64,000 nucleotides of DNA from NCBI GenBank assembly GCA_017427065.1, contig JAFRTL010000007.1:163292-227291 (forward strand). Direction: 5' to 3'. Both the position numbers and the translations under genes were made by a program. The notes beneath the pieces were generated by a model, which saw nothing but the letters and a program-made list of their open reading frames with translations, was not told the origin of the DNA and ran no database searches. Below, piece after piece: positions 8,193-12,338 of this stretch (its first letter is position 1; the number at the start of each line of letters is the position of its first letter). Source of the DNA: Bacteroidaceae bacterium. GTDB taxonomy: Bacteria; Bacteroidota; Bacteroidia; Bacteroidales; Bacteroidaceae.

Positions 8193-8235
8193 GACATTGA
8201 GCATTGAACATTAAAAAAATAAAATTTTGTGACAA

Positions 8236-8269
8236 TTTGTTTGGAAATAAGAAATTTTCATTACATTTG
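8236..8269 (+). promoter_or_regulatory. Promoter of the aromatic amino acid operon
   Basis: TTTG occurs twice (8236-8239 and 8240-8243), with TACATTTG at 8262-8269; the spacing is 22 or 18 nt, close to the Bacteroidota pattern. Transcription would start near 8275, about 22 nt before the leader-peptide ATG. Confidence 0.7.
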
Positions 8270-8296
8270 CACCCGATAAGCATATAATTTGTAAAA

Positions 8297-8383
8297 ATGA
8301 AGCAGTTTACTTACGCATATTACTCCTTTTATTACTTTTACTTTGGCCAAGAAGTAGAGCGGGAGTTTGTATGTGCCGAGTGA
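8297..8383 (+). CDS. Aromatic operon leader peptide (28 aa, Phe/Tyr-rich)
   Basis: The ORF reads MKQFTYAYYSFYYFYF followed by GQEVEREFVCAE and a TGA stop. Ten of the 13 residues from 4 to 16 are Phe or Tyr. It precedes an operon making exactly these two amino acids and is followed by a terminator hairpin before pheA. Translation speed across the aromatic block would decide between antiterminator and terminator. The composition is far from chance for a 28-codon frame, so the call is strong although no peptide product needs to accumulate. Confidence 0.9.
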   Translation: MKQFTYAYYSFYYFYFGQEVEREFVCAE

Positions 8384-8438
8384 CAGCGACGCTTAAGAAC
8401 TAAAAAAGAACAGAAAGTTAAACATAGAAATCCCGCTC
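8357..8438 (+). promoter_or_regulatory. Antiterminator pairing of the aromatic attenuator
   Basis: GAGCGGGA (8357-8364, inside leader codons 21-23) is a perfect 8-bp complement of TCCCGCTC (8431-8438), which is the core of the terminator 5' arm, so the two pairings exclude each other. A ribosome stalled in codons 4-16 would leave 8357-8364 exposed and favour antitermination. A weaker competing pairing ACTCC (8322-8326) with GGAGT (8362-8366) may protect the segment in other states. Confidence 0.75.
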
Positions 8439-8459
8439 AATGATTGAGTGGGATTTTTT
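8428..8459 (+). terminator. Attenuator terminator before pheA
   Basis: A 13-bp stem with one G-U, AAATCCCGCTCAA (8428-8440) with TTGAGTGGGATTT (8444-8456), a 3-nt loop, and a run of T to 8459. It ends only 12 nt before the pheA ATG, well placed for premature termination of the leader. Confidence 0.88.
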
Positions 8460-8471
8460 ATTAATCATTTT

Positions 8472-9314
8472 ATGAAAAAGATAGCAATACAAGGAGGTAT
8501 CGGATCGTTCCACGATGTAGCTGCGCATCAGTTCTTTTCAGATGAGGAAATAGAACTATTATGTTGCTCTACCTTTGAGCAGGTATTCGATGCCATCAAG
8601 GACGACAGCCACGTGATAGGTCTCTGTGCCATAGAGAACACCATCGCAGGCAGTCTGTTGCACAATTACGAACTGCTGAAACAAAGTGGCGTACAGATAG
8701 TGGGAGAGCATAAGCTGCGCATCTCCCATAGCTTCGGCTGTCTGCCTGACGATGATTGGGACGATATCACTGAAGTGAACTCCCACCCTATTGCCTTAAT
8801 GCAATGTCGTGATTTTCTGAACAAACATCCTCACATGAAATTAGTGGAAACGGAAGACACGGCGCTGAGTGCCATGATTATCAAACGGGATAATCTACAT
8901 GGACATGCCGCCATCTGCTCAAAGGCTGCTGCAGAATACTACGGCATGAAGGTACTGCAAGAAGGCATAGAGACCAACAAGCACAACTTTACGCGCTTCT
9001 TGGTGGTAGCAGACCCTTGGCAAGCTGACGAACTGAAGCAAAAGGGTACATACAACAAAGCCAGTCTGGTCTTCACCCTTCCCCACCATGAGGGCAGCTT
9101 GTCGCAAGTACTGAGCATTCTGTCGTTCTATCAGATCAACCTCACGAAAATACAGTCGCTCCCCATCATCGGAAGAGAATGGGAATACCAGTTCTACGTG
9201 GATGTGGAGTTTACCAATATATTAAGGTATAAACAAAGCATCAGTGCCATCAGTCCACTGACGAAAGAACTTAAAATACTCGGAGAATATGAAGCAGGAA
9301 AATCAACCATCTAA
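8472..9314 (+). CDS. pheA: Prephenate dehydratase
   Basis: A 280-residue enzyme converting prephenate to phenylpyruvate in phenylalanine synthesis. The catalytic dehydratase domain (about 1-180) shows ENTIAGSLLHNYELL, the segment HAAICSKAAAEYYGM and the conserved TRF in NFTRFLVVAD. An ACT domain follows (about 195-275), beginning KASLVFTLPHHEGSLSQVLS. The usual Phe-binding ESRP motif reads QSLP here (KIQSLPIIG), so classical feedback inhibition may be altered. There is no chorismate mutase domain; that activity is fused to the DAHP synthase two genes downstream. The start is the ATG at 8472; a GTG at 8448 lies inside the terminator stem. It overlaps the next gene by 26 nt. Confidence 0.93.
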   Translation: MKKIAIQGGIGSFHDVAAHQFFSDEEIELLCCSTFEQVFDAIKDDSHVIGLCAIENTIAGSLLHNYELLKQSGVQIVGEHKLRISHSFGCLPDDDWDDITEVNSHPIALMQCRDFLNKHPHMKLVETEDTALSAMIIKRDNLHGHAAICSKAAAEYYGMKVLQEGIETNKHNFTRFLVVADPWQADELKQKGTYNKASLVFTLPHHEGSLSQVLSILSFYQINLTKIQSLPIIGREWEYQFYVDVEFTNILRYKQSISAISPLTKELKILGEYEAGKSTI

Positions 9315-10473
9315 GATACAGCCAGCAGATAGGCTGAATAGTGTGAGCGAGTATTATTTCTCTCGCAAACTGAAAGAAGTGGCACAGATGAATGCCGCAG
9401 GTATGGACGTGATAAGTCTAGGTATAGGAAGTCCTGACATGCCACCTTCGGAAAAGGCTATCAATCGCCTTTGTGAAGAAGCGAAGAATCCCAATGGGCA
9501 TGGGTATATGCCCTATGTAGGCATTCCTGAACTTCGAAAGGGATTTGCAGACTGGTACAAGAAATGGTACAACGTGGAGTTGGATCCTCAAACTGAAATA
9601 CAGCCCTTGATAGGTTCCAAGGAAGGTATCCTACACGTTACTTTGGCTTTCGTAAACCCTGGGGAACAGGTGCTGGTGCCTAATCCTGGTTATCCTACTT
9701 ACACTTCACTAAGTAAAATCCTCGGAGCAGAGGTTATCTACTATGATTTAAAGGAGGAAAACGGATGGATGCCCGACTTTGCACAATTGGAGCAAATGGA
9801 TATGAGCCGCGTGAAACTGATGTGGACCAATTATCCACACATGCCGACAGGCACGAATGCCACGCCTGAGCTTTATGAAAAATTGGTAAAACTGGCCAAA
9901 GAGAAAGACATCGTGATAGTAAACGACAATCCTTACAGTTTCATCTTGAACGACCATCCTCTGAGTATTCTCAGTGTTCTAGGAGCCAAGGACTGCTGCA
10001 TAGAGTTCAACAGTATGAGCAAGGCACACAACATGCCTGGATGGCGTATCGGCATGCTGGCATCGAACAAAGATTTCATCAGTTGGGTGCTAAAGGTGAA
10101 GAGCAACATCGACAGTGGCATGTTCCGCGCCATACAGTTGGCTGCTGCCACCGCTTTGGAAGCTGAAGCCGACTGGTATGATGGCAATAATGCCAACTAT
10201 CGTCGCCGTCGTGCATTAGCTGGAGAAATCATGAAGGCACTAGGTTGCACTTACGATGAGAAACAAGTAGGTATGTTCCTCTGGGGACGCATTCCTGACC
10301 ATTATTCCGATGTGGAAGAGTTGACGGAGCGCGTGCTGCACGAGGCTAGAGTTTTTATCACGCCAGGCTTCATCTTTGGTAGCAATGGCAAGCGTTTCAT
10401 ACGCATCTCGCTTTGCTGCAAGGACGAGAGGCTTAATGAAGCACTTCAACGAATTAAAGAATTGAAACATTAA
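9289..10473 (+). CDS. PLP-dependent class I/II aminotransferase (probable aromatic aminotransferase)
   Basis: A 394-residue fold-type I aminotransferase. It has the N-terminal SLGIGSPDMPPSEKAI segment, a substrate/PLP region with PNPGYPTYTS, NYPHMPTGTNA and VNDNPYSFIL, and the PLP-lysine segment NSMSKAHNMPGWRIGM. Its place between prephenate dehydratase and DAHP synthase/chorismate mutase suggests it makes Phe and Tyr from phenylpyruvate and hydroxyphenylpyruvate; sequence alone would also allow an aspartate- or diaminopimelate-type enzyme. The start overlaps the end of pheA by 26 nt, which suggests translational coupling. Confidence 0.87.
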   Translation: MKQENQPSKIQPADRLNSVSEYYFSRKLKEVAQMNAAGMDVISLGIGSPDMPPSEKAINRLCEEAKNPNGHGYMPYVGIPELRKGFADWYKKWYNVELDPQTEIQPLIGSKEGILHVTLAFVNPGEQVLVPNPGYPTYTSLSKILGAEVIYYDLKEENGWMPDFAQLEQMDMSRVKLMWTNYPHMPTGTNATPELYEKLVKLAKEKDIVIVNDNPYSFILNDHPLSILSVLGAKDCCIEFNSMSKAHNMPGWRIGMLASNKDFISWVLKVKSNIDSGMFRAIQLAAATALEAEADWYDGNNANYRRRRALAGEIMKALGCTYDEKQVGMFLWGRIPDHYSDVEELTERVLHEARVFITPGFIFGSNGKRFIRISLCCKDERLNEALQRIKELKH

Positions 10474-10484
10474 AACTTAATAAT

Positions 10485-11552
10485 ATGGAACTGGATTTAC
10501 AACCCATCAAGCTGCAAGGCGTAAGTGAAGAGCGCCCACTGGTAATAGCTGGTCCATGCAGCGCAGAGACTGAAGAACAAGTGATGACCACTGCCAAAGC
10601 TTTGGCTAAGAATGGCATTAAGATATTTCGTGCTGGCATCTGGAAACCTCGTACCAAACCAGGTGGTTTCGAGGGTGTAGGTGAACCTGGACTGGCCTGG
10701 ATGAAACGGGTTAAGGAAGAAACGGGTATGTATGTTACGACGGAAGTGGCTAACACCAAGCATGTGGAAGCTGCCCTAAAGGCTGGTATCGACATCCTGT
10801 GGATAGGAGCACGTACGTCTGCCAATCCTTTTGCCATGCAGGAAATTGCAGATTCCCTGAAAGGAGTGGATATTCCTGTGTTGGTAAAGAATCCTGTGAA
10901 TCCTGATTTGGAGCTTTGGATTGGTGCTATGGAGCGACTGAATAATGCAGGCATACGTCGTCTGGCTGCCATTCATCGTGGTTTCACGACCAATGATAAG
11001 AAGATTTATCGCAATATGCCGTTGTGGCATATTCCTATTGAGATGCGTCGTCGCATTCCAGACCTCCCCATCATTTGTGACCCTAGTCACATGGGAGGCA
11101 AGCGTGAGCTGATAGCTCCTCTTTGCCAGCAAGCCATGGATCTAGGCTTCGATGGTCTCATAGTGGAGAGTCACTGCAATCCAGACAAGGCTTGGAGCGA
11201 TGCAGCACAGCAAGTGACTCCAGACATACTCGATTACATCTTGAACCTTTTGGTTATACGTGATGTGAAATATACTACCGAGAGTCTGGCAGAATTGCGC
11301 AAGCAGATTGATGAATGTGACGAAAGCCTTATCCAAGAATTGGCAAAACGCATGAGGGTGGCCCGTGAGATAGGAACTTACAAGAAGGAACACAATATGG
11401 CCATCGTACAGACAGGTCGCTACAATGAAATCTTGGAGAAACGTGGCTCTCAGGGAGCCCTCTGTGGATTAGGAAGCGACTTCGTGAAGGTTGTTTTCGA
11501 AGCCATACATAGCGAGAGCGTACGACAACAGTTAGAGATACTTAATAAATAA
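10485..11552 (+). CDS. 3-deoxy-7-phosphoheptulonate synthase fused to chorismate mutase
   Basis: A 355-residue bifunctional enzyme. The N-terminal domain (about 1-260) is a DAHP synthase of the KDO8P-synthase-like class, with AGPCSAETEEQV, RAGIWKPRTKPGGFEGVG and CDPSHMGGKRELI. The C-terminal domain (about 265-350) is an all-helical AroQ-type chorismate mutase, with LAELRKQIDECDESLIQELA and RMRVAREIGTYKK. It thus starts the shikimate pathway and also commits chorismate to prephenate. Fusion of the two is common in Bacteroidota and some Firmicutes, where the mutase domain can confer feedback by prephenate. It follows the aminotransferase by 11 nt. Confidence 0.93.
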   Translation: MELDLQPIKLQGVSEERPLVIAGPCSAETEEQVMTTAKALAKNGIKIFRAGIWKPRTKPGGFEGVGEPGLAWMKRVKEETGMYVTTEVANTKHVEAALKAGIDILWIGARTSANPFAMQEIADSLKGVDIPVLVKNPVNPDLELWIGAMERLNNAGIRRLAAIHRGFTTNDKKIYRNMPLWHIPIEMRRRIPDLPIICDPSHMGGKRELIAPLCQQAMDLGFDGLIVESHCNPDKAWSDAAQQVTPDILDYILNLLVIRDVKYTTESLAELRKQIDECDESLIQELAKRMRVAREIGTYKKEHNMAIVQTGRYNEILEKRGSQGALCGLGSDFVKVVFEAIHSESVRQQLEILNK

Positions 11553-11564
11553 AATACCTATCAT

Positions 11565-12338
11565 ATGAGAATACTTATTTTAGGAGCTGGTAAGATGGGA
11601 ACTTTTCTGGCTGATGTGCTGAGCTTTCAGCATGAAGTAGCCGTGTTCGATACCAATGTTCAAGCCCTGCGCTTCATCTATCATACTTACCGCTATACTA
11701 CGTTAGATGAAATTAAGGAGTTCGCTCCAGAGCTGGTGATCAATGCTGTCACGTTGAACCATACGCTGGATGCTTTCAGTACAGTAATTCCGGCTTTGCC
11801 AAAGGACTGTATCCTGAGTGACATTACCAGTGTGAAGACTGGTATGAAGGAATTCTATGAGCAAAGTGGTTTTCGTTTTGTAAGTAGTCACCCTATGTTC
11901 GGTCCCACATTTGCCAACCTGAGTAACCTCAGTAACGAAAGTGCTATCATTATTAAAGAGGGCGACCATCTAGGGCGCATCTTCTTCAAGGACCTGTACC
12001 AGCAACTCAACCTCCGAATTTTTGAATATACCTTCGAAGAGCACGACGAAACGGTGGCTTACTCGCTTTCTATCCCATTTGTCTCTACCTTCGTGTTCTC
12101 TGCTGTAATGAAGCATCAGGATGCTCCTGGTACTACGTTCAAGAAACACTTGGCCATTGCTCATGGCGTATTAAATGAGGACGATTATCTATTGCAGGAA
12201 ATACTTTTCAATCCCCGCACGCAGCATCAAGTGGAAAATATCCGTAAGGAATTGAAGGAGTTACTCGGAATCATAGAGCAGAAAGATGAGGAAGGCATGA
12301 AACGATACCTAGAGAAAATCAGAAAGAACGTGCTCTGA
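11565..12338 (+). CDS. tyrA: Prephenate dehydrogenase
   Basis: A 257-residue NAD(P)-dependent dehydrogenase making hydroxyphenylpyruvate for tyrosine. The N-terminal Rossmann motif is LILGAGKMGTFLADVLS; catalytic-domain landmarks are SDITSVKTGM and SSHPMFGPTFANLSNLS, whose His is the expected catalytic residue. The C-terminal helical part includes HDETVAYSLSIPFVSTF. It is shorter than fused TyrA proteins and has no ACT domain. It is the last gene of the Phe/Tyr operon, 12 nt after the fusion enzyme. Confidence 0.92.
   Translation: MRILILGAGKMGTFLADVLSFQHEVAVFDTNVQALRFIYHTYRYTTLDEIKEFAPELVINAVTLNHTLDAFSTVIPALPKDCILSDITSVKTGMKEFYEQSGFRFVSSHPMFGPTFANLSNLSNESAIIIKEGDHLGRIFFKDLYQQLNLRIFEYTFEEHDETVAYSLSIPFVSTFVFSAVMKHQDAPGTTFKKHLAIAHGVLNEDDYLLQEILFNPRTQHQVENIRKELKELLGIIEQKDEEGMKRYLEKIRKNVL

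Follow-up and report, generated by a model that had tools for sequence, protein, structure and literature searches.

A putative Phe/Tyr leader-peptide attenuator upstream of pheA in Bacteroidaceae and its codon content across the Bacteroidia

Can a single leader peptide monitor two amino acids at once? This question is raised by a locus in a 64,000-nucleotide stretch of DNA (hereafter, the window) from assembly GCA_017427065.1 (contig JAFRTL010000007.1, positions 163,292 to 227,291, forward strand), whose nearest named relatives are Bacteroidaceae and Bacteroides. There, pheA is clustered with genes for an aminotransferase, a fusion of 3-deoxy-D-arabino-heptulosonate-7-phosphate synthase and chorismate mutase (DAHPS/CM), and tyrA (Table 1), so the cluster makes both phenylalanine and tyrosine. 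An initial annotation proposed that a short leader upstream of pheA senses both products. Our preferred reading, in which we have considerable confidence, is that this is a ribosome-mediated transcription attenuator whose one leader reads both charged tRNA-Phe and charged tRNA-Tyr and responds if either one is short.

Table 1. Features of the attenuator and the operon, in window coordinates
Feature	Position	Strand	Remarks
Putative Bacteroidota-type promoter	8236..8269	+	TTTG near -33 (8240-8243); TACATTTG (8262-8269, TAnnTTTG)
Leader peptide ORF (predicted)	8297..8383	+	28 amino acids, MKQFTYAYYSFYYFYFGQEVEREFVCAE; ATG 8297, TGA 8381-8383
Control run, codons 4-16	8306..8344	+	4 Phe and 6 Tyr codons; kept in relatives
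Region 1, 3' end of the control run	8336..8344	+	Putative protector helix (1:2) with 8351-8359
Region 2, antiterminator 5' strand	8357..8374	+	Within the leader ORF; core at 8357-8364
Small hairpin at the leader's stop codon (candidate RNA polymerase pause hairpin)	8373..8392	+	8373-8377 with 8388-8392
Region 3, antiterminator 3' strand	8422..8438	+	Overlaps the terminator 5' arm
Intrinsic terminator, 3:4	8428..8459	+	13 pairs, with the loop at 8441-8443 and the U tract at 8454-8459
pheA, prephenate dehydratase with ACT domain	8472..9314	+	Pfam PF00800, 1.6e-53; ACT domain scores under the cut-off
Aminotransferase, class I/II, LL-DAP aminotransferase-like	9289..10473	+	
DAHP synthase - chorismate mutase fusion	10485..11552	+	PF00793 and PF01817
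tyrA, prephenate dehydrogenase	11565..12338	+	PF02153, 1.3e-9

The initial annotation quoted just the first 16 residues of the leader; the full predicted peptide is longer (Table 1). The run of 10 aromatic residues in 13 codons that it described is there, and no such run arose in 20,000 mononucleotide shuffles of positions 8193 to 8471. Upstream of the leader are TTTG near -33 and a match to TAnnTTTG, which we take to be the promoter consensus of the Bacteroidota. TAnnTTTG is found within 60 nt upstream of the leader's ATG in 77 of 78 Bacteroides-group sequences versus 97 of 3,900 mononucleotide shuffles. The single exception, L010, lacks an ATG in frame, and no upstream region was assigned to it in this count. 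Upstream of pheA, L010 does have the aromatic run, the tail of the leader, and the terminator; the sequence 5' of its run is unlike that of its relatives.

The leader is followed by the 13-bp terminator that the initial annotation reported: positions 8428-8440 pair with 8444-8456, and one of the 13 pairs is G-U. (A scan for consensus terminators did not list the terminator at 8428-8459.) The alternative pairing of the terminator's 5' arm with the inside of the leader also held up, as GAGCGGGA (8357-8364) and TCCCGCTC (8431-8438) are perfectly complementary. This 8-nt match arose in 148 of 20,000 shuffles of 8346-8427, which is only modestly beyond chance for a single sequence; what settles the pairing is its conservation in relatives. 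In the window, this 2:3 helix can be lengthened to 16 bp (8357-8374 with 8422-8438).

We aligned 31 non-redundant Bacteroides-group sequences, which were picked from 74 with a recognized terminator. The core 2:3 helix (8357-8364 with 8431-8438) is paired in 247 of 248 cells and covaries: four cells are changed on both sides, and 0 of 500 shuffles attained the covariation score. Slid versions of the core pairing are just 25-51% paired. The 16-bp version is 91.8% paired, with the last two pairs present in under half of the sequences. Individual relatives illustrate the compensation: in L049, one change is carried through regions 2, 3, and 4 (GAGTGGGA / TCCCACTC / GTGGGA), and L076, L077, and L080 share a compensated pair (AAGCGGGA with TCCCGCTT). 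The terminator (3:4) covaries as well (0 of 500 shuffles attained its score). The leader (with its tail in 78 of 81 sequences), the terminator, and the antiterminator are all conserved in relatives. Two sequences, L020 and L075, lack the terminator's 5' arm and are otherwise intact; possibly, the hairpin collapsed during assembly.

Two other helices were identified. The putative protector helix (1:2) pairs TTTTACTTT with a stretch matching AAAGTAGAG in 278 of 279 cells (99.6%) across the 31 sequences, with zero double changes. Around the leader's stop codon, a short hairpin (GURUC/GAYGC) is paired in 94.5% of cells, and 0 of 500 shuffles attained its covariation score; one of its pairs is C-A in the window. 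It might be an RNA polymerase pause hairpin. An overlapping alternative (AAGUG/YGCUU) is 93.8% paired and covaries less strongly: 21 of 500 shuffles attained its score. From the leader stop onward, positions 8382-8400 (GACAGYGAYGCTTAAGRAC) are strongly conserved in most of the aligned sequences, which exceeds what the hairpin needs, and the conserved stretch 3' of the hairpin is single-stranded. In L063, L066, L076, L077, and L080, the hairpin or the conserved stretch is missing or much altered. Overall, the anatomy, as predicted from sequence, is that of a classical leader-peptide attenuator, and it is very likely that the locus is an attenuator.

To find the attenuator in other genomes, we built a model (R1) from the 31-sequence alignment and used a threshold of E = 0.01. 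At the level of the family, R1 matched 181 of 251 genomes, and at that of the order, 65 of 247; weak matches may be due to chance. pheA itself was detected in 103 of the 247 order-level genomes. The genome that contains the window is 83% complete; only the copy upstream of pheA scores there (E = 6.5e-23), and we rejected the idea of paralogous copies because the second-best match has E = 0.42. We also considered a hand-picked subset of 40 pheA places from the order and found a leader in 33. The model has no match in the genomes of 39 of these places; in the other genome, G503, it matches on another contig. L386 has just 15 nt of upstream sequence. Another 29 places (L318-L346) are more distant, with 26 from the same class and 3 from the same phylum. 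They were taken as the top-scoring pheA among 128 matching genomes and not as a random sample, and 27 of them have a leader. Across these 69 further loci, a leader was found 5' of pheA in 60, versus 29 of 1,380 shuffles. The predicted attenuator is widespread in relatives, over the class Bacteroidia.

One genome of genus g10 has a second strong copy of the attenuator (L208:292-432 in G344:C51; E = 2.1e-13), with a Phe-rich leader (MYTIFFSFFFFYFSNKVKREFVCVQE). This copy sits 5' of a gene that resembles a beta-barrel porin (Pfam BBP2, E = 0.00084, below the cut-off) and not an aromatic gene. The attenuator may have moved.

We then compared the codons in the leaders with the genes that follow. 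We excluded repeat places and well-covered genera (L001, L082-L121, L123-L126, L128, L131, L160, L161, and L248), as well as L251-L295 (except L280, L283, and L284), L311, and L386-L392; these exclusions removed seven leaderless detached pheA (L275-L279, L281, and L282). The 293 loci that were kept include 9 without a recognized gene, 19 without a leader, 8 whose gene content is unknown, 7 with a lone pheA (according to tblastn), and 250 multigene operons with a leader, which give 232 leaders (211 distinct sets) from 51 families. None of the 232 lacks Tyr and none lacks Phe, so the proposal that codons for both amino acids share a single peptide before an operon that makes both turns out to be the rule. 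Within a 10-residue window, these leaders average 3.65 Tyr, 4.66 Phe, and 0.13 Trp. With so little Trp (30 of the 232 leaders have one), we rejected Trp as a third input in general. The eight loci of unknown content all have mixed leaders, and when more of the surrounding genome is included, four of these loci (L173, L221, L231, and L238) prove to be multigene.

Some loci have tandem attenuators, with two Phe/Tyr leaders before pheA (L236, L237, L150, L155, L219, L225, L227, L234, and L228). These occur in several families, and in L150, L155, and L219, both leaders had a terminator in the model run described below. We rejected the idea that tandem leaders are separate sensors for Phe and Tyr, since each member of the pair is mixed wherever a multigene locus has two; several of the pairs involve weak ORFs.

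A different pattern is seen where pheA has become separated from the aminotransferase, DAHPS, and tyrA and has kept its leader: in seven genomes from five families (G252, G401, G411, G618, G421, G625, and G481), the run contains Phe only. The runs are MTRFFTHFFFFFTQQ in G401, RFFFFFAFFF in G411 and G618, SFFFFFFR in G421, GFFFFFFG in G625, FVFGFLFCF in G481, and FFSNFFFVF in G252; the leaders of G481 and G252 do have one Tyr, but it is residue 2 and not part of the run. When leaders were scored mechanically by 10-residue window, the only sets with zero Tyr were L283, L284, L353, and L385: in L280, a second upstream chance ORF adds a Tyr, and L364 has the Tyr at residue 2. (G252 was found after this count and was noticed through extra matches.) Fisher's exact test gives P = 2.6e-7 for 5 families versus 51, a comparison that ignores phylogeny and in which families f1, f19, and f29 are on both sides.

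We checked the neighbors of these pheA. For five of them, which were re-fetched, tblastn found no partner gene in the following 5-6 kb, and no Tyr gene is among the downstream neighbors of any of the seven. In G401, G411, and G618, the next large ORFs after pheA are on the other strand. In G421 and G625, ilvD follows about 200 nt after pheA, and G421 also has a thiamine pyrophosphate enzyme of the acetolactate synthase kind; in G481, an ARMT1-like gene lies 1 kb after pheA. In G252 (L393), a pyridoxal phosphate enzyme (trpB-like) and anthranilate synthase component I follow about 320 nt after pheA, so this pheA may share a transcript with trp-type genes. The Phe-only leader of G252 has a single Trp after the run. 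Another apparently lone pheA, L306, has a mixed leader, and Pfam identified a gene for prephenate dehydrogenase downstream; hence, tblastn had missed its partner.

In G411 and G618, the operon without pheA retains a mixed, Tyr-rich leader. In G252, the aminotransferase-DAHPS/CM-tyrA genes are 7.1 kb away on the same contig and have their own attenuator, whose leader (MQQLNAYVYSYYYFTLTR) has the run YVYSYYYF, with five Tyr and one Phe. All eight of the congeners of G252 that we fetched have pheA and the aminotransferase together, with mixed leaders; in one of them, tyrA lies outside the stretch. The mixed leader of L401 lies beyond the first 300 nt upstream. As for G401 (99% complete), tyrA was not found in the genome. 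Its pheA (L262, L280) is 60% identical to the window's, versus 41-53% for the family's other pheA, and was possibly acquired together with the attenuator.

Not every detached pheA has a leader. No leader was found before the detached pheA in six of eight genomes of family f29, in five of genus g30, or in G490. ORFs in two of the six f29 loci (L282 and L317) pass a loose threshold of 5 of 10, and we judged these to be due to chance.

It could still be that the attenuator responds to phenylalanine only and that the tyrosine codons are neutral. This was reported for the AroR leader of Corynebacterium glutamicum, whose Phe-Tyr-Phe answers to limitation for phenylalanine and not tyrosine (according to excerpts of PMC11802643). 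Also, pairing fixes the TTT and TAC codons with which the run ends, so some of the tyrosine codons could be driven by the RNA. However, all 232 multigene leaders counted keep Tyr, the runs before detached pheA lack it in five families, and it dominates the leader of the tyrA operon that is detached in G252. Neutral codons would not follow gene content in this way, and we consider a phenylalanine-only response to be unlikely. The match between the split in codons and the split in gene clusters suggests instead a single, ribosome-read switch that watches both amino acids, and the window's leader probably does sense both.

More broadly, we lean toward the view that the ancestral leader was a Phe/Tyr OR-gate across the Bacteroidia and that, when pheA and tyrA were split and a leader was kept, the codons of the kept or copied sensors changed one at a time to suit the genes behind them. 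If so, then the specificity of a ribosome-based sensor evolves in step with gene content, becoming Phe-only for pheA and Tyr-dominated for the tyrA operon of G252, and these operon splits are natural gain and loss experiments on what leader peptides sense.

A second alternative is that the leader peptide itself acts, whether by arrest of the nascent chain or as a free peptide, via its conserved tail. Within the genus group, the VEREFVC-type tail hardly varies: it is present in 78 of 81 Bacteroides-group sequences, and the remaining three have at most 143 nt upstream. However, the synonymous sites in the tail are equally frozen. For example, arginine is encoded by CGG alone in 76 of 77 sequences, and the 77th has tryptophan (TGG) instead, with compensation in regions 3 and 4. 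Furthermore, outside the nearest genera, the ORFs of other families often stop straight after the run (FYFTK*). Both observations imply that the tail follows the RNA pairing; it looks like a feature of the RNA and not of the protein. We rejected the tail as a functional protein, and an acting peptide is very improbable.

To ask whether the geometry would support control by the ribosome, we modeled the ribosome as a 30-nt block and folded the window's RNA up to region 3. With the ribosome stalled anywhere from codon 3 to codon 17, the probability of the 2:3 pairing, P(2:3), was 0.97; from codon 18 to codon 28, it was 0.00. Until region 3 has emerged, region 1 holds region 2: the probability of this is 0.77 for a ribosome at codons 1-3, and it is about 0.3 over codons 7-11 and 0.12-0.49 over codons 12-18. 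Given this hold, the effective control codons would be about 6-17, which include both Phe and Tyr. Of 247 distinct leaders that we modeled, 229 have a terminator by a simple stem search. In 212 of these (93%), P(2:3) is above 0.5 with the ribosome at the last aromatic codon, compared to 267 of 687 in a shuffled-spacer control. This proportion falls to 81%, 45%, and 19% at one, two, and three codons past the last aromatic codon, so that, in the model, the run mostly ends zero to two codons ahead of the masking boundary. Three Phe-only leaders (L353, L364, and L385) do not have a clear step in the model, and their complementary strands can be read by eye.

With the ribosome on the leader's stop codon, this crude model gives P(2:3) = 0.74 in the window and above 0.5 in 77 of 229 leaders. 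If the RNA is untranslated as region 3 emerges, then 2:3 is favored (0.84 in the window, and above 0.5 in 175 of 229 leaders). In the full-length RNA of the window at equilibrium, 3:4 wins for every ribosome position (0.94-0.96), so the choice between 2:3 and 3:4 must rest on kinetics that are outside the model. As modeled, a stall in the run would free region 2 and onward movement would mask it; the prediction is weak at the stop codon. A constitutive terminator with an unused ORF and no switch at all would fit with equilibrium folding's poor account of the fed state, but it is very improbable, as the mutually exclusive pairings covary, the run mostly ends just before the masking boundary, and the leaders recur in distant relatives.

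We propose that a shortage of either phenylalanine or tyrosine would stall the ribosome at about codons 6-17, which would break the 1:2 helix and leave region 2 free. The 2:3 helix would then form, and the polymerase would read through into pheA-aminotransferase-DAHPS/CM-tyrA. If both amino acids are plentiful, then the ribosome would move on and cover region 2, and 3:4 would terminate transcription. The anatomy, its conservation, the compensatory changes, the step in the modeled geometry, and the match of codons to genes are what we observed; the response to starvation, the role of tyrosine, and the pause hairpin are inferred. Attenuation of this kind requires that transcription and translation be tightly coupled at these leaders; to our knowledge, such coupling is not settled for the Bacteroidota. 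The locus also makes the integration of two amino acids by one peptide directly testable.

Rfam does not seem to describe this RNA. At the gathering threshold, the window yields a tRNA only. A search with 291 bases, listing matches up to E = 10, gave low scores for Phe_leader (RF01859; 21.2 bits, below the gathering score of 55) and for BTnc005 (RF04178; 25.5 bits, E = 0.00048, below the gathering score of 174.8). BTnc005 scores so far below its threshold that we do not consider it to be the same RNA, and it was not named in the open-licence literature among the matches listed. Neither Bacteroid-trp (RF01692) nor the T-box matches the leader region up to E = 10. Thus, a widespread device for controlling Phe and Tyr synthesis in gut Bacteroides relatives is absent from Rfam at threshold.

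In the classical pheL-pheA system, the leader is rich in the product amino acid, phenylalanine only, and uses the logic of protector, antiterminator, and terminator. Bacteroid-trp RNA is also an attenuator. Enterobacterial pheL-pheA is regulated by charged tRNA-Phe (excerpts of PMC11802643). Like pheL, the window's leader is rich in product amino acids and lies upstream of prephenate dehydratase; unlike pheL, it has Phe and Tyr together, and the operon is larger. Within the Bacteroidetes, Bacteroid-trp is described as a candidate cis-regulatory RNA (excerpts of PMC2864571) and so resembles our locus, but it concerns Trp genes, judging by its name. For Flavobacterium psychrophilum, there is a report of leader-peptide attenuation, and B. 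thetaiotaomicron is suspected of using it too (PMC9723704, PMC7366714). These cases share the phylum and short ORFs in 5' untranslated regions, which in Flavobacterium precede amino-acid operons; the excerpts of these articles do not name a Phe/Tyr leader or pheA. In Acholeplasma, uORFC-13-1 (24 representatives) combines a Phe-coding upstream ORF with a terminator before aroF, the first shikimate gene (excerpts of PMC8632094). It shares the Phe codons and the terminator with our locus and differs in its phylum and in that Phe alone is named. Among the matches listed from the open-licence literature and the excerpts of it, none describes a Phe/Tyr leader for the Bacteroidota.

The closest functional precedent is AroR, the leader of aroF in C. 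glutamicum (Neshat et al. 2014, as described in excerpts of PMC11802643). Both have Phe and Tyr codons in one leader before an aromatic-pathway operon. Unlike the window's leader, AroR is from another phylum, only its Phe-Tyr-Phe is named there, and it is reported to be insensitive to tyrosine. What seems new here, relative to that open-licence literature, is the presence of two product amino acids in one run, the spread of the predicted attenuator across a class, and its apparent retuning when the operon splits.
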